From an uncultured Bacilli bacterium (GTDB lineage: Bacteria > Bacillota_I > Bacilli_A > RF39 > UBA660), in assembly GCA_947623925.1 (NCBI GenBank), contig CANQID010000012.1, positions 1-32,936 on the forward strand: 32,936 nucleotides of DNA. Direction: 5' to 3'. The position numbers were made by a program, and so were the translations under genes. Each line of letters begins with the position of its first letter. Positions within the stretch are counted from its first letter, which is position 1. The notes under the pieces are model-generated. The model searched no databases. It was not told the DNA's origin and saw only the letters and a program-made list of their open reading frames with translations. Below, piece after piece: positions 5,714 through 32,936 of the stretch.

Positions 5714-5742
5714 ATTTTATCATGAATGTTAATAAAAGTCAA
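5714..5742 (-). promoter_or_regulatory. Promoter of rplU-prp-rpmA, inside the end of spoIVFB
   Basis: TTGACT (5737-5742) and TAAAAT (5714-5719) are spaced by 17 bases on the minus strand. The -35 box overlaps the last codons of the spoIVFB-like gene, so ribosomal genes can be expressed independently of the upstream operon. Confidence 0.8.
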
Positions 5743-6469
5743 ACTTTTTCTTTAAAATATCACCTTCCGTATAGTACATTTTATTATTATAAAATATATT
5801 TTTATAATATTTAAACATTTTATTTATATTTAAACCTTTTATAGTTTTTATTTTTTTAAATTTAAAATTTTTATTTTTTCTTTCAAGTAAAAATTTTATA
5901 AACGTAATTTTTCTTAATTTTATTTCATTAAATACTTTAATACTTAAAAAAATTATAATTAAATAAATTACTAAATTTTTAAATAAGAAAAGTGGTATTA
6001 AAAAAACAATCGATAAAATAATAGATATTAAATTACTTAATTTATATGGAAAAAATAAATTTAAAATACTATTTAATATTTTAGAACCATCTAGTGGATA
6101 TATTGGTAAAAGATTAAATAATAATATCCCATAGTTTATAATAAATAAATTAGTAATATTAAAATTTTTTAAGAAAAAATAAAACATAAATTGAAATACA
6201 AAACCCATTATTGAAACAATAAACTCTTCTTTAAATGGCTTATTTATTGATGTATTAAAAATAGTTATTGCGCCATTTGGTAAAATAACTATTTTATCTA
6301 TATCCCATTTATAATGTATTCCTGATATTATATGGCCTAATTCATGAAATAATATTATAGAAGTAAATAAAATAAAATCTTTAAAATGTCCTGTTAATAC
6401 ACCAATAAAAATAAGTATGTAAAAAAATATGTGTATTTTAATTTTAGATATAATTTTTATAATCAACAA
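5729..6469 (-). CDS. spoIVFB: SpoIVFB-like site-2 metalloprotease
   Basis: Intramembrane zinc protease of the S2P/M50 family. In Bacillus, SpoIVFB cleaves pro-sigma-K in the mother cell. The 246-residue protein has several membrane segments, the zinc motif HELGH (H42, E43, H46) and the second motif LLPIYPLDG with D127, so the catalytic residues are intact. The C-terminus is lysine-rich. It overlaps the upstream spoIVFA-like gene by 26 bases and precedes rplU, exactly as in Bacillus, which strengthens orthology over other M50 proteases. The typical C-terminal CBS domain is not evident. Whether the organism sporulates cannot be told from this gene alone. Confidence 0.87.
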   Translation of the reverse strand: MLIIKIISKIKIHIFFYILIFIGVLTGHFKDFILFTSIILFHELGHIISGIHYKWDIDKIVILPNGAITIFNTSINKPFKEEFIVSIMGFVFQFMFYFFLKNFNITNLFIINYGILLFNLLPIYPLDGSKILNSILNLFFPYKLSNLISIILSIVFLIPLFLFKNLVIYLIIIFLSIKVFNEIKLRKITFIKFLLERKNKNFKFKKIKTIKGLNINKMFKYYKNIFYNNKMYYTEGDILKKKFDFY

Positions 6470-7052
6470 TATTTCCTTCTTTTTTAAATACTAAATACAT
6501 AAAGTCATCTTTATTTTCACCTATATAACTACCCTTTTTCACATAATCATATAGTTTAACTGATATACTTTTTAAATTTGAATACCATACTGTCGTTCCA
6601 TCTTGTTGTTCTATTATAACAGTATTTCCATATCCATCTTTTTCACCAACAAATACTACTAATCCTGTTTCTATAGATGGTATTAAATAATTTTGTCCAA
6701 CTACTATTTTAACACCATCTAAGTATTGTTCACTTTCTTTATATGTTAATTTTTCATTAAATACAGTTTCATTTTTATCTAAAAATGAAAATACATCTTT
6801 AAATGGTATAGAACTACCAAAGTATTTTTCATATAGTGAATTTATATAGGCAAAAGAAAAGTTATCTTCATATACTTTCTCATGAAAAGAAGGTTTTAAT
6901 TTTGGGTTAGCCTTTAATACTATAAGTGTTGTAATAGTTATTATAACTGTTATTAAAAATTTACTTGCAAAAACCTTTAAACCTTTAAATTCATAATGCT
7001 TGTCTTTTTTATGTATATCTTTTTTTATTTTTTTTAGATATTCATTATCCAT
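6444..7052 (-). CDS. spoIVFA: SpoIVFA-like membrane protein with degenerate LytM/M23 domain
   Basis: In Bacillus, SpoIVFA holds SpoIVFB in a complex and restrains it until forespore signalling proteases cut it. This 202-residue protein has a charged N-terminus, one membrane segment near residues 35-50 and a C-terminal LytM fold (GYGNTVIIEQQDGTTVWYSNL ... VKKGSYIG read in pieces). The metal-binding histidines of active M23 peptidases are replaced, as in SpoIVFA, so it is presumably non-catalytic. The ATG at 7052 is preferred over the GTG at 7061 because GGGTG lies six bases upstream of it. It sits between mreD and spoIVFB. Confidence 0.8.
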   Translation of the reverse strand: MDNEYLKKIKKDIHKKDKHYEFKGLKVFASKFLITVIITITTLIVLKANPKLKPSFHEKVYEDNFSFAYINSLYEKYFGSSIPFKDVFSFLDKNETVFNEKLTYKESEQYLDGVKIVVGQNYLIPSIETGLVVFVGEKDGYGNTVIIEQQDGTTVWYSNLKSISVKLYDYVKKGSYIGENKDDFMYLVFKKEGNIVDYKNYI

Positions 7053-7065
7053 ATAGTTCACCCAA

Positions 7066-15586: not shown

Positions 15587-15760
15587 TTAATCAAAATATA
15601 TAATCATTGCAGAAAAACAAAATATTTGCTCTTCTGAAAATACGCTTACTGATACTTGGTATTTTATATCTATAACTTCTCCATCTAATGTTTTTAAAAA
15701 ATCATTTACAGATTTTTCTAAGTCTGATTCATGTCCTTCATCAAATATTTTTACTTTCAT
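15587..15760 (-). CDS. Cse60-like small sporulation-family protein
   Basis: The 57-residue protein MKVKIFDEGHESDLEKSVND ... EVIDIKYQVSV ... EEQIFCFSAMIIY closely matches the short Spore_Cse60 family (IFDEGHE block, VIDI(K)Y block and the strongly conserved QI(F/Y)CFSAMI end). Its molecular role is unknown; the Bacillus relative is expressed in the mother cell early in sporulation. ATG at 15760 with GGTGATTAT upstream is preferred over an upstream ATG that lacks a site. It lies just upstream of clpC on the same strand and could be cotranscribed with it. Confidence 0.8.
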   Translation of the reverse strand: MKVKIFDEGHESDLEKSVNDFLKTLDGEVIDIKYQVSVSVFSEEQIFCFSAMIIYFD

Positions 15761-15872
15761 ATAATCACCAAATACACTATACATTTTTATAAAAAAAAAT
15801 AATGTCAATTTATAACTACATTTTTAATTTTTTTAAATATTAATTAAAAATAGTTTAAATGACATATTTTTA

Positions 15873-28547: not shown

Positions 28548-28570
28548 AAAATAACTATTAAAGTTATTTT
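28543..28570 (-). terminator. Terminator of the PBP-mraY-ftsW operon, embedding the ftsW stop
   Basis: AAAATAACT (28548-28556) pairs with AGTTATTTT (28562-28570); the minus strand continues TTTATG. The ftsW stop codon (28564-28566) lies inside the stem. Confidence 0.8.
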
Positions 28571-29655
28571 TCATATCTTGAAATATTAAGAACTATTCCA
28601 ATACTACATAAAGTTATGAGCAAACTAGAGCCACCATAAGAAAGAAAAGGAAGTGTTACTCCTGTTACAGGAATAAGACCTACTACAACCATTAAATTAA
28701 GTATAGCTTGGAAAGATAATTGAAACATTATTCCAAATGATAAATATTTTCCAAATATATCTTTACAATTTCTAGATATTTTAAATCCTGTGATAATTAT
28801 AGTTAAAAATAAAGCTGCAACTATAACTATTCCAAGAAATCCAAATTCTTCACTAATTATAGAAAAAATGAAATCTGTTTGTGGCTCTGGCAAATAAAAA
28901 TGTTTTTGCCTTGAATTTAAAAATCCAAATCCAAATAATCCACCAGGTCCTATTGCATATAATGATTGTATTATTTGAAATCCACTACCAAGTGGGTCAG
29001 ACCAAGGGTTTAAAAATGAAAGAATACGCGCTAAACGATAAGGAGCAACTATTATAAGACCTGTTATACCTAAAACTCCTATAATTCCAAGTCCTATAAA
29101 AAACTTCATATTTACTCCACCTACAAATAACAATCCTATTATTGAAACTACTATTATCATACCTGTTCCAAAGTCTGGCTGTAACATTATAAGTCCAAAT
29201 GTTAAAAATAAAACAGCTAGTATTGGTAAAACTCCTTTTTTTATATCTTTCATTCTTTTTTCATTATTCATTAAATATTTAGATGTAAATATTATTAAAG
29301 CAAGTTTAGTAAATTCACTAGGTTGAACTCCAAATGAACCAATACCAAACCAACTTCTACTACCATTTCTAACCATACCAACACCTGGAATTATTACTAA
29401 TACTAATAATATTAAACAACCAATTAAAATTATATTTGCTCTTTTTAAATAAATTTTATAATCTATTTTACTTACAAGAAACATTAAAATAATACCTATT
29501 ATAAAAAATAATGCTTGATTTTTTACATATTTAAGTGAATCATTATATTTAAATTCTGCCCAAATATATGATGCTGAATAAATCATTACAATACCAAATA
29601 TAGATATTAAAATAACTGAAATCACTAATAACATTTCTACATTTTTCTTTTTCAT
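28564..29655 (-). CDS. ftsW: SEDS peptidoglycan glycosyltransferase, FtsW/SpoVE type
   Basis: Polytopic membrane enzyme that polymerises lipid II into glycan strands together with a class B PBP. The 363-residue protein has about ten helices and the SEDS blocks YSASYIWA, GSRSWFGIGSFGVQPSEFTK, PDFGTGM, GSGFQIIQSLYAIGPGGLFG and LPFLSYGGSSLL. The catalytic-loop region (PEPQTDFIFSIISEEFG) is intact. It overlaps mraY by four bases. Because the upstream PBP may be SpoVD or the division PBP2B, this could be FtsW or the sporulation paralogue SpoVE; sequence alone does not decide. Confidence 0.92.
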   Translation of the reverse strand: MKKKNVEMLLVISVILISIFGIVMIYSASYIWAEFKYNDSLKYVKNQALFFIIGIILMFLVSKIDYKIYLKRANIILIGCLILLVLVIIPGVGMVRNGSRSWFGIGSFGVQPSEFTKLALIIFTSKYLMNNEKRMKDIKKGVLPILAVLFLTFGLIMLQPDFGTGMIIVVSIIGLLFVGGVNMKFFIGLGIIGVLGITGLIIVAPYRLARILSFLNPWSDPLGSGFQIIQSLYAIGPGGLFGFGFLNSRQKHFYLPEPQTDFIFSIISEEFGFLGIVIVAALFLTIIITGFKISRNCKDIFGKYLSFGIMFQLSFQAILNLMVVVGLIPVTGVTLPFLSYGGSSLLITLCSIGIVLNISRYEK

Positions 29656-30644
29656 AATAATACCCCAAAACTAAGTGATATCATAGAAGCAATTAACCCA
29701 ACTATCCAAAATAATTTAACTATGTTTTCTTCTTTCCAGCCCATTTTTTCAAAAGTATGATGTATTGGTGTCATAGGAAAAAGCCTTTTTTTAGTTAGTT
29801 TATAATAAAATCTTTGAATAACACAACTTAATGTTTCTATTACAAATACTATTCCTATTACGATTAATAATAATTCGTGTCTTGTAAGTATTGCATATGT
29901 TCCAAGTGTTGCACCAAGCGCAAGTGAACCTGTATCCCCCATAAATATTTTAGCAGGTTTTATATTGAAAACTAAAAATCCAAGTAAAGCGCCTGATAAA
30001 GCAAATCCAAAAAGAGCAATATCACTATATCCTTCTAGCCATCCTGTATTCCATGAAATAAGTGAAAAAGTTATAAAAGCAATTAAACTAAGACCGCCTG
30101 AAAGCCCATCAAGTCCATCTGTTATATTTACTGCATTACTACTTGCAACTAAAACAAGTAATATAAATACTCCATATAACCAACCAATATTTACTTTAAT
30201 ATTAAGTGTATGTATCCATATTAATGGTTCATTTCCACCTTTCATAAATATAAAGAAAAATATAACTGCTATTATTATTTGCATTACAAATTTTGAAGTT
30301 TCACTTAATCCTTTATTATTGTTTTTTTTAATTATCAAATAATCATCTATAAAACCTATTAAAGAATAACTTAAGAAAGTAAAAACTACTAAAATTAATG
30401 TATAATTTATTTTAATTTTACCTAATATTATCATCAATATTAAATAAATAATAACAGGTATTATAAATATTAATCCTCCCATAGTAGGAGTTCCTATCTT
30501 TTTTTTATGTCTTTCTTCTAAATATATACTTAAGGTCTGATTTACTTTTTTCTTTTTTAATATTGGAACTAGAAAAACACCAACTATTAATGAAAATATA
30601 AATCCTATCATCATTGAAAGTACTGATTTAATCATCATTATCAT
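29652..30644 (-). CDS. mraY: Phospho-N-acetylmuramoyl-pentapeptide-transferase MraY
   Basis: Forms lipid I from UDP-MurNAc-pentapeptide and undecaprenyl phosphate. The 330-residue protein has ten membrane helices and the diagnostic motifs GTPTMGGL, GFIDDYLI (catalytic Asp pair), NAVNITDGLDGLSGG, IFMGDTGSLALG and PIHHTFEKMGW. All catalytic residues are visible. It starts 11 bases after the PBP fragment, with AGGTGAAATT as ribosome binding site, and overlaps ftsW by four bases. murE/murD, which flank mraY in Bacillus, are absent here. Confidence 0.96.
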   Translation of the reverse strand: MIMMIKSVLSMMIGFIFSLIVGVFLVPILKKKKVNQTLSIYLEERHKKKIGTPTMGGLIFIIPVIIYLILMIILGKIKINYTLILVVFTFLSYSLIGFIDDYLIIKKNNNKGLSETSKFVMQIIIAVIFFFIFMKGGNEPLIWIHTLNIKVNIGWLYGVFILLVLVASSNAVNITDGLDGLSGGLSLIAFITFSLISWNTGWLEGYSDIALFGFALSGALLGFLVFNIKPAKIFMGDTGSLALGATLGTYAILTRHELLLIVIGIVFVIETLSCVIQRFYYKLTKKRLFPMTPIHHTFEKMGWKEENIVKLFWIVGLIASMISLSFGVLL

Positions 30645-30655
30645 AATTTCACCTT

Positions 30656-31330
30656 CTATTCTGTTAGTAATAATCTAATACTAGAACCTTCTAAAACTCT
30701 TGTATTTGCTTCTGGTGATTGATAACTTATTTTATCTCCTGTACCAGAAAATTCTAAATTAAATCCTTTTAATTCTTTTTTAACATCTGAAACTGAATAT
30801 CCAACTACATTAGGGACAGTCACATATTTTTTCTCACCATAGTTATATTTTTTTTCTGTTGTTGTGTTTCTTTTTTCAATACCTAAAATTTCTATAGAAT
30901 CAGTAAGTATGCTTTTTGCTATAGGGGCTGCTACTGTACCTCCATACTGTGTTACCCCTTTAGCATTATCTATCGCTACATATACAACAATTTGTGGGTC
31001 ATCGGCAGGTAAAAATCCAATAAATGATACGATATAATTTCCTACCATATATTTTCCATCTTTTACTTTTTGAGCAGTTCCTGTTTTTCCTCCTACTCTA
31101 TATCCTTCTATATATGCAGGTCTTCCTGTACCATTTGTTACTACACTTTCTAATGTTTCTCTTACTTTTTTACTTGTTTCTTCACTTATAACTGTTCTTA
31201 CTTTAGTTGGATGATTTTCTTGTATTACTGTATTTGTAACAGGTTCGTTTAAACTTTTTACAACATATGGTTTATATAATGTCCCTCCATTTATTGCTGC
31301 ACTTACTGCTGTTATTTGTTGTAACGGGGT
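30656..31330 (-). pseudogene. 3' fragment of a class B penicillin-binding protein gene (SpoVD/PBP2B-like, PASTA domain), interrupted by a recombinase element
   Basis: The 224-codon fragment reads TPLQQITAVSAAINGG, TLYKPYVVKSLNEP, then the KTG box in GYRVGGKTGTAQKV, the block NYIVSFIGFLPADDPQ and a single C-terminal PASTA domain (VTVPNVVGYSVSDVKKELKG to the end). This is the last third of a class B transpeptidase. The SxxK and SxN motifs and the N-terminal half are missing. Family consensus places a glycine-rich segment before TPLQQ; here the frame instead enters recombinase-side DNA and meets TAG at 31354-31352. The fragment itself has no frameshift or stop, so it is not decayed, consistent with recent or reversible interruption. 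One PASTA domain favours SpoVD or a clostridial-type FtsI. mraY and ftsW follow. Confidence 0.88.
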
Positions 31331-32921
31331 ATAATAAATGAAACTTTTTGCCTAAATTATCAGAAAGTGTATTTATACTTTCTCCTGTCTTAATAAAAAT
31401 ATCTAATTTTATCTGTTTATAATTTTGCTTATGAACTATTATTCTATCTATTATTTCATTAAATACATCACTATAACATTTATCATCTTCTAAACACTTT
31501 TCTAATATCTTTTTTATTTCATTAATTTTGTTTTCAATATAATTTTTGTCTTTCTTGTTACATTTTAATTCATTCATTTTACTTTGGTAAATAACTAAAT
31601 CTTCATTTATTAAATCTATCTGTTTTTTGTAATCATCTTTAGATAAGTATTCCTCCATAACAAGTTCTAGTAATTTATCTTTTTTATTATTTAAAACTGA
31701 TATTTTAGATTCAATATTTTTTATTTCAATATCATTATTATTTGTTTCTAAATAATTTTTACATTCATTTAATATTTCATCAAAAATAGTATTTCTCCTT
31801 TTAAATAATTTATTAAACATATCTTTAAAAATTTCATCTAGTTCTAGTTCAAATACTCTAGGATTAGAACAACCTTTTAAACTTTCTTTCCTATATACTT
31901 GACATTCCCATACAGGATTATTCTTTCTCTTACCAGCACTTGATCTATGATAAGTTAAGTTATGACATCCACAATATATTTTCCCTGAATAAGTATATCT
32001 ATTTTGAAATACGCACTTTTTAACTGCTCTATTTGTAAAACTATCTTGTCTTTGTTTTAATTTAGTATTTGCTCGTTCCCATAGTTCTTCAGATACTATT
32101 GGTGGAACATTATCATAATCTTTATAAACAATCCAATCAGATTCATTTAATCTTTTCTTTTGTTTTGTACGATAATCTAATACTTTTGATTTATGCCCAC
32201 AGTAATATCCTTTATATTTAGGATTTTCAATAATTCTTGTAAGGATTGTTGTATCAATTCTTTTGCCAGTCCTACTTTTATATCCTAAACTATAAAGATA
32301 CCTTGATACTTTAGATAAACCATCAGTAGTATTAGCATATCTATCAAATATTATTTTTATCATTTCTGCTTGAGCTTCATCAATTACTAATTTTCCTTTA
32401 TCTTTTACATAACCATAAATATTAGAACATCCTAGTACCACACCATTATCAATACTTCTTTTCATACCAAATGAAACTCTTTCGGAAAGTCTCCTTACTT
32501 CATCTTGAGCAATTGAAGACATCATTGTAAGCCTAAGTTCAGAATCAGGTAATATTGTATTAATATTATCATTTAAGAAATATACGCCAACACCATTAGA
32601 TAAAAGTTCTTGCGTATACATAATACTATCTAATGTACTTCTTGAAAATCTTGATATTTCTTTGGTTAATATCAAATCAAATTTATGTCGTTTAGCATCT
32701 TCAATCATTCTTAAAAATTCTTCACGTTTTTTAACCTGTGTTCCTGATATTCCTTCATCGATATATGAACCTATAAATTCCCAGTTAGGAACTTTACTAA
32801 TATAATCATTAAAGAAGGATATTTGACTTTGTAAAGAATGTAATTGTTCATCTTTATCAGTTGATACTCTTGCATAAAAACATACTCTTAAATTTAATTC
32901 TTGTAATGGAACACCTTTCAT
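31272..32921 (-). CDS. Large serine recombinase (site-specific integrase)
   Basis: Phage/ICE-type integrase. The 549-residue protein has an N-terminal resolvase domain (CFYARVSTDKDEQ with catalytic S20; EISRFSRS with R91/R94), a Recombinase domain (IYGYVKDKGKLVIDEAQAEM, then NPKYKGYYCGHK), a zinc-ribbon region (IYCGCHNLTYHRS ... WECQVY ... GCSNPRVFE) and a coiled coil (about 390-480). AGGAATAATATT precedes the ATG at 32921. The frame crosses the attachment junction near 31330 and stops 56 bases inside the PBP gene, so about the last 19 residues (YPVTTNNSSKCSNKWRDII) are read from host DNA in a different frame from the PBP. No other element gene is inside the window. No terminator separates it from mraY-ftsW. 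Confidence 0.95.
   Translation of the reverse strand: MKGVPLQELNLRVCFYARVSTDKDEQLHSLQSQISFFNDYISKVPNWEFIGSYIDEGISGTQVKKREEFLRMIEDAKRHKFDLILTKEISRFSRSTLDSIMYTQELLSNGVGVYFLNDNINTILPDSELRLTMMSSIAQDEVRRLSERVSFGMKRSIDNGVVLGCSNIYGYVKDKGKLVIDEAQAEMIKIIFDRYANTTDGLSKVSRYLYSLGYKSRTGKRIDTTILTRIIENPKYKGYYCGHKSKVLDYRTKQKKRLNESDWIVYKDYDNVPPIVSEELWERANTKLKQRQDSFTNRAVKKCVFQNRYTYSGKIYCGCHNLTYHRSSAGKRKNNPVWECQVYRKESLKGCSNPRVFELELDEIFKDMFNKLFKRRNTIFDEILNECKNYLETNNNDIEIKNIESKISVLNNKKDKLLELVMEEYLSKDDYKKQIDLINEDLVIYQSKMNELKCNKKDKNYIENKINEIKKILEKCLEDDKCYSDVFNEIIDRIIVHKQNYKQIKLDIFIKTGESINTLSDNLGKKFHLLYPVTTNNSSKCSNKWRDII
31325..31336. other. Probable attachment-site junction of the integrated element
   Basis: PBP similarity begins at ACC-CCG-TTA-CAA (minus strand, from 31330) and recombinase-specific sequence lies on the other side. 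The crossover must be within or next to this interval. The other attachment site is beyond the window, so the exact core dinucleotide cannot be fixed. Confidence 0.6.
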
Positions 32922-32936
32922 AATATTATTCCTAAC

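Follow-up and report, generated by a model that had tools for sequence, protein, structure and literature searches.

A serine recombinase element within the sporulation gene spoVD of an uncultured Bacilli bacterium, with related insertions at three codons across its order

Introduction

Sporulation genes interrupted by large serine recombinase (LSR) elements are described here for spoVD and compared with the closest known systems. spoVD encodes a transpeptidase that is used only in sporulation and makes the spore cortex. The best known of these systems is the skin element in sigK (B. subtilis, C. difficile). Like skin, the spoVD elements are LSR elements flanked by attachment (att) sites within a sporulation gene, and their excision would restore the frame. 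They differ from skin in that the target is a cortex transpeptidase rather than a sigma factor, that three alternative insertion codons and double insertions occur, and that the elements are small and carry cargo, whereas the skin type consists of defective prophages; excision from spoVD has also not been directly observed. The gin element in gerE of B. cereus ATCC10987 resembles the spoVD elements in being non-phage and gene-intervening and in having LSRs and variable cargo (PMC5595907). However, gin is 28.6 kb long with three LSRs (PMC5595907), while the spoVD elements measured here were 2.7-15.5 kb and one LSR was found in each. Sporulation genes are likewise interrupted, and restored by LSR excision, in the case of vfbin (spoVFB), SPbeta (spsM) and yin (yabG) (PMC10747680, PMC4191935), but each of these is reported from one gene at one place, whereas in spoVD three codons, three LSR clades and many genera are involved.

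As a naturally interrupted gene, spoVD is absent from the open literature searched, which names sigK, spsM, spoVFB, gerE and yabG. The first-pass annotation of this DNA, made by a model from the letters alone, had proposed a new target gene for skin-type interruption; judged from the open literature only, novelty is likely, not certain. spoVD figures there only as a secondary site into which ICEBs1 integrated in the laboratory, without detectable excision (PMC3715440), and a genome survey reports it as reduced or absent in the order RF39 (PMC10868615). Split spoVD genes that escaped annotation may explain the survey result, provided that the present genomes belong to RF39. Gene-intervening elements had so far been scattered oddities in five sporulation genes. 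In this uncultured order, a single such gene is targeted repeatedly, at three active-site codons independently and sometimes twice.

The interrupted gene and its element

The window, meaning the whole stretch of DNA analyzed (32,936 nucleotides), is contig C12 of the 1.23-Mb genome, in 49 contigs, of an uncultured gut bacterium. On the minus strand at the right end of this contig, an LSR gene runs without interruption into the 3' part of a class B penicillin-binding protein (PBP) gene, as the first-pass annotation had described; the open frame of the PBP spans 30656-31351, and the LSR stop lies at 31272. The PBP part proper (30656..31321, minus strand, codon 419 to stop) carries the KTG box and one PASTA domain, and was assigned to spoVD by its match to TIGR02214 (positions 409-635, 259 bits) and by the same frame in intact orthologues. 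Directly downstream on the minus strand is mraY (29652..30644), called from position and frame sequence, followed by a gene for a SpoVE/FtsW-type flippase (28564..29655; TIGR02615, 444 bits at a cutoff of 448.8; TIGR02614, 402 bits), a protein type that SpoVD usually works with.

The missing 5' part, expected from the annotation, was found on contig C25 of the same assembly as a 421-aa segment (TIGR02214 positions 3-413) ending in ...FGQGVSVTPI, with unrelated codons thereafter. When the halves were rejoined, a 638-aa SpoVD was obtained with the break at codon 419, and computed removal of the element restored the exact frame. The rejoined protein was 99% identical to the product of the uninterrupted gene in G002 and 85% to that in G001. 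Both genomes are of the same genus and have spoVD intact, not as a stable short PBP; the G002 orthologue scored 750 bits against TIGR02214, the NCBIfam SpoVD equivalog (cutoff 688). The genome of the window yielded no further copy of spoVD. The annotation had left the target as either the division PBP or SpoVD, and TIGR02214 settled this for SpoVD. A division PBP was ruled out as target because a separate 731-aa PBP2X/FtsI-type paralogue (PbpB), likely the division enzyme, is intact on C19.

The final 77 bp of the window (32860..32936) recur exactly at the start of C25 and are otherwise absent from the genome, as a k=77 assembly graph would produce. Joining C12 and C25 completed the element, which measures 6,174 bp from core to core and has eight small genes and one LSR. 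From the 5' side, the order is the spoVD N part, attL, an ASCH-like/cytidine deaminase fusion, a 64-aa ORF, a YfcE-like phosphoesterase, ORFs of 94 and 102 aa, a 109-aa helix-turn-helix protein, ORFs of 144 and 68 aa, the LSR, attR, the spoVD C part, mraY and the spoVE-like gene; the ASCH-like and YfcE-like labels are our own interpretation. In an independent rabbit-gut MAG (L053), the spoVD N part, an element, an LSR (90% identical) and the spoVD C part lie in this arrangement on a single contig, which rules out the assembly chimera at about 31330 that the annotation had named as a possible refutation.

No phage structural or lytic genes were found in the 6,174-bp element, none were recognized by eye in the other elements listed below, and no relatives of the LSR were found in viral contigs. 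A prophage or phage origin was rejected on these grounds. Conjugation machinery was not found in the 6.2-kb spoVD element, so it is not an ICE, and the element contained no known RNA family.

Attachment sites and recombinase

The LSR gene (31272..32936, minus strand) starts beyond the contig end, at an ATG at C25:92 with the ribosome-binding site AGGAGGTGTGATT, and its integrated form encodes 559 aa, the final codons being spoVD sequence beyond the crossover that is read in a different frame. Membership in the LSRs was accepted on three domains (Resolvase, PF00239; Recombinase, PF07508; Zn_ribbon_recom, PF13408) together with a predicted attP that has inverted arms around a dinucleotide.

To place the crossover, attL and attR were compared with attB of G002, GTAACTCCTATACAACAAATAAC; attL matches it up to TACA and attR from TACA onward, and only TACA is common to all three. 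The crossover dinucleotide was assigned to the CA of the coding strand (31320..31321, minus strand; counterpart at C25 4635-4636), replacing a first proposal of CC after the alignment to G002 attB. The predicted attP is CATTTATTA-(22 nt)-TAATAAATG, with perfect 9-bp inverted arms centered on the CA of TACA, the left arm at 31332..31340 (minus strand) and the right arm at C25:4616-4624. The second attachment site that had been anticipated thus exists beyond the window end, on C25. Removal of the element gives TPIQQ, as in the relatives. The 'TPLQQ' motif at which the annotation had placed the insertion was an accidental reading across attR, its TP coming from the element side, whereas the native motif in G001 and G002 is TPIQQ. 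As far as sequence comparison can decide, site-specific insertion into spoVD and its exact restorability are established with near certainty.

Recurrence across the order

The search covered a sample of 385 genomes from the order, and 80 with weak or fragmented matches were read in detail. Counting the cases already known, spoVD was split in at least 76 of the 385 (about a fifth), a lower bound because not all remaining weak-match genomes were read. The breaks fall on catalytic motifs at three fixed sites, namely TP-I|Q in the TPxQ segment (site A), SCN, the SxN motif (site B), and STFK, the SxxK motif (site C). Among the split genomes, 26 were interrupted at A only, 34 at B and 16 at C, three of the latter also at A. 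N parts ended at codons of about 299-314 (C), 352-372 (B) and 418-422 (A), the true break at B being after SCN, at about codon 350. At all three sites the frame was restored on computed removal of the element, and the conserved codons are good attachment sites. In the LSR tree, the A, B and C recombinases formed three clades with about 100/100 support, one site each; as tools for site-specific recombination these three families are new, and their targets are defined and conserved. For site A, the attL motif was detected in 36 genomes from 25 genera and the reversed pattern in one; in a few of the 36, the motif was outside spoVD.

Elements contained in single contigs were available for A (L053, 4.6 kb; L212, 7.9 kb; L213, 13.8 kb, cut at the fetched end; L219, 7.0 kb; L221, 10.4 kb; L222, 3.7 kb), B (L261, L262, L267, L272) and C (L268-L271, the smallest 2.7 kb). 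Double insertions (C and A) were present in at least three genomes; L217 and L223 run from the N part through a C element and a middle piece (295-421) to an A element, and L211 comprises a C-type LSR, the middle piece, an A element and the C part. The division paralogue PbpB has similar motifs and was unsplit at these codons in the genomes examined for split sites, so insertion seems to be tolerated only in the sporulation gene. LSR similarity did not track that of the host gene (L053, LSR 90% and SpoVD 79%; G003, LSR 52% and SpoVD 80%), which, together with the variable cargo, points to horizontal movement.

Cargo read by eye (L212-L222, L268-L270, L223) included AbiE toxin-antitoxin pairs, Fic-like proteins, ABC transporters, an RsgA copy, and sugar and nucleotide enzymes.

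Exchange of the recombinase tail

Just inside attL, the LSR frame continued through attP encodes CLINDTLIVTRGITSKYMKKYDVEFMYNCFVEI and a stop. The length of this tail (34 codons including the stop) was exact in 34 of 37 distinct versions, and pooled pN/pS was 0.32 in the LSR frame vs. 3.6 and 1.5 in the other two frames. A full-length LSR of 579 aa with the native tail was found in G371. From the reading frame through attP and from this full-length protein, attP of the A elements is inferred to lie within the LSR gene. In the circular form, the LSR would have its native tail; upon integration the tail would be lost and about 16 codons read from spoVD instead. Purifying selection on the tail indicates that the circular form matters, and the exchange of C-terminal tails could be a built-in state switch, although an effect on activity is only inferred. 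If functional, such an exchange would let an integrase sense by simple means whether it is integrated. By inspection, the second LSR of the genome, in an element within a carboxypeptidase gene (dac; see below), has the same in-frame tail design. A comparable arrangement is integration-dependent immunity of mycobacteriophage BPs (PMC4557955), where attP is also in a coding region and integration alters the C-terminus; there the altered protein is the phage repressor, whereas integration of the A elements and of the dac element alters their own serine recombinase.

Circular contigs with attP were sought in G371, G281 and G143, and none was circular. The LSR copies in G281 and G143 are decayed. 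Outside a normal attR, A-type LSR genes that are decayed or interrupted but have an intact tail (attP form) were seen at L206 (G281), L208 (G143) and L210 (G058), and these resemble tandem or relic copies.

Selection on the split gene

Compared with G002, the N part of the split gene has 22 synonymous and no nonsynonymous changes, and the C part has 12 and 2, respectively (34 vs. 2 in total), similar to mraY (19 synonymous, 1 nonsynonymous). Because the element may have entered this species recently, some of the selection on the species' own split gene may be older than the insertion; the wider set of split genes is therefore more telling. Among 77 distinct split N parts, no stop was found clearly before the break, five flagged stops being at or past the junction, and N-part dN/dS was 0.014-0.14 among same-genus genomes split at the same site. 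On these substitution patterns, split spoVD is inferred to be under purifying selection and not a pseudogene.

Sporulation capacity and control of excision

The host sporulation set includes SpoIVA (over cutoff), SigE-, SigG- and SigK-like factors, SpoIVFA/FB-type proteases and Cse60, and because of these genes the host is very probably a spore former. The SpoIVFA/FB-type genes (M23 at 6444-7061, M50 at 5729-6469) and Cse60 (15587-15808) are in the window, where the annotation had reported them. Across the order, spoIVA was kept in 74 of 76 split genomes vs. 273 of 309 others, which counts against simple loss of function. G071 and G135 (genus g40), both split at site A, had no SpoIVA match above noise and were the sole exceptions among the 76.

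Both junction states were found in one bin, G010, in which the first 77 bp of a contig starting at codon 393 match the spoVD N contig exactly and the two diverge at the crossover, one path leading to attL and the other to intact spoVD. These occupied and empty junctions support excision without proving it, as a mixture of two strains would look the same. The genome of the window itself showed no rejoined gene. Contigs ended 500 bp or less past the break in 25 of 77 split cases; contig ends near attL were considered as proof of attP and not accepted, since their distances (68-81 bp) agree only loosely with a 77-mer fork.

Nearly all LSRs read in A, B and C elements, and LSR2 of the dac element as well, have upstream of them a small ORF (about 40-80 aa) with weak similarity to SHOCT. 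From its position and the weak SHOCT matches only, this ORF is inferred to be the best candidate for a directionality factor. In A elements, the leader ahead of the 68-aa ORF has a much stronger fold than shuffled sequences (z -5.5), and the fold pairs its ribosome-binding site. The fold could keep the operon silent in read-through transcripts; the leader RNA showed little covariation, as the sequence hardly varies. In a promoter scan, no SigE, SigK or SigG consensus was found upstream of the A-element LSR operon. At L007 (300-430, minus strand), the leader is conserved and its ribosome-binding site pairs with the upstream UUUUGUCCUUU.

Excision and alternative explanations

The best explanation, in which we have fairly high confidence, is a gene-intervening element of the skin/gin type in spoVD that is excised at sporulation. 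The LSR would take a conserved stretch of active-site-motif codons in spoVD as attB, and the integrated element would leave the gene in two pieces, which should do vegetative cells no harm, since they have an intact division paralogue, PbpB. At sporulation, most likely in the mother cell, the LSR would excise the element and rebuild spoVD exactly, with the SHOCT-like protein encoded just upstream probably acting as directionality factor; elements of this kind would pass between species with variable cargo. Excision at sporulation, its timing and the directionality factor are inferences made without reads, expression or sporulation data. The system offers a testable case of cells tolerating, and perhaps exploiting, split genes that are needed only in a terminal or dormant cell. 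On a broader reading our judgement is evenly divided, namely that spoVD is order-wide a gene in DNA pieces, with LSR clades specialized by site, double carriers needing two excisions, and a tail swap at integration that could be a switch.

If the elements were plain mobile islands that attach at spoVD, the variable cargo would be accounted for, as would LSR similarity being independent of the host gene. Sporulation would then be disabled without programmed excision in carriers that are losing it, and such loss is common in related orders (PMC10868615). This we consider unlikely, given that the 77 split N parts showed no decay, that dN/dS was low within genera for genes split at one site, that SpoIVA was retained in all but two split genomes, and that the frame is restorable at three sites. 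The open frames in both halves would also be expected if the two pieces were expressed and worked as a split protein without DNA excision. However, the breaks interrupt the transpeptidase domain at its catalytic motifs, the 3' piece begins inside the LSR frame and lacks an obvious start or signal, unrelated codons close the N piece, and in at least three genomes the gene is in three pieces, so that this possibility is scarcely credible. That an LSR element was chimerically joined to spoVD in assembly or binning might be suspected from a window contig that ends inside the element and from nearly all named source genomes being MAGs, but with the same arrangement in single contigs of several genomes (A, B and C elements) and breakpoints recurring at three codons across many genera, such an artefact can practically be discounted. 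Programmed excision of a gene-intervening element remains the preferred explanation.

Stray gene pieces and a second split gene

Stray spoVD pieces (codons ~351-421) with an A-type attL were observed at L092 (4191-8001), L064 (67-6398) and L201 (1-606). The piece is preceded by a B-type LSR in L092 and L201; in L092 and L064 it is followed by A-type cargo, with intact spoVD directly downstream. An additional spoVD N part is present elsewhere in G018 (L122). The stray pieces may be traces of a repair in which an intact gene came in.

In the window's own genome, a D-alanyl-D-alanine carboxypeptidase (Peptidase S11) gene is split right after its SGN motif within one contig, its parts lying at C2:~148-620 and C2:39674-40490 (L282, L281, L196 8027-10490). 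The insertion is an ICE-like element of ~39 kb with its own LSR, and the carboxypeptidase gene is intact in G001.
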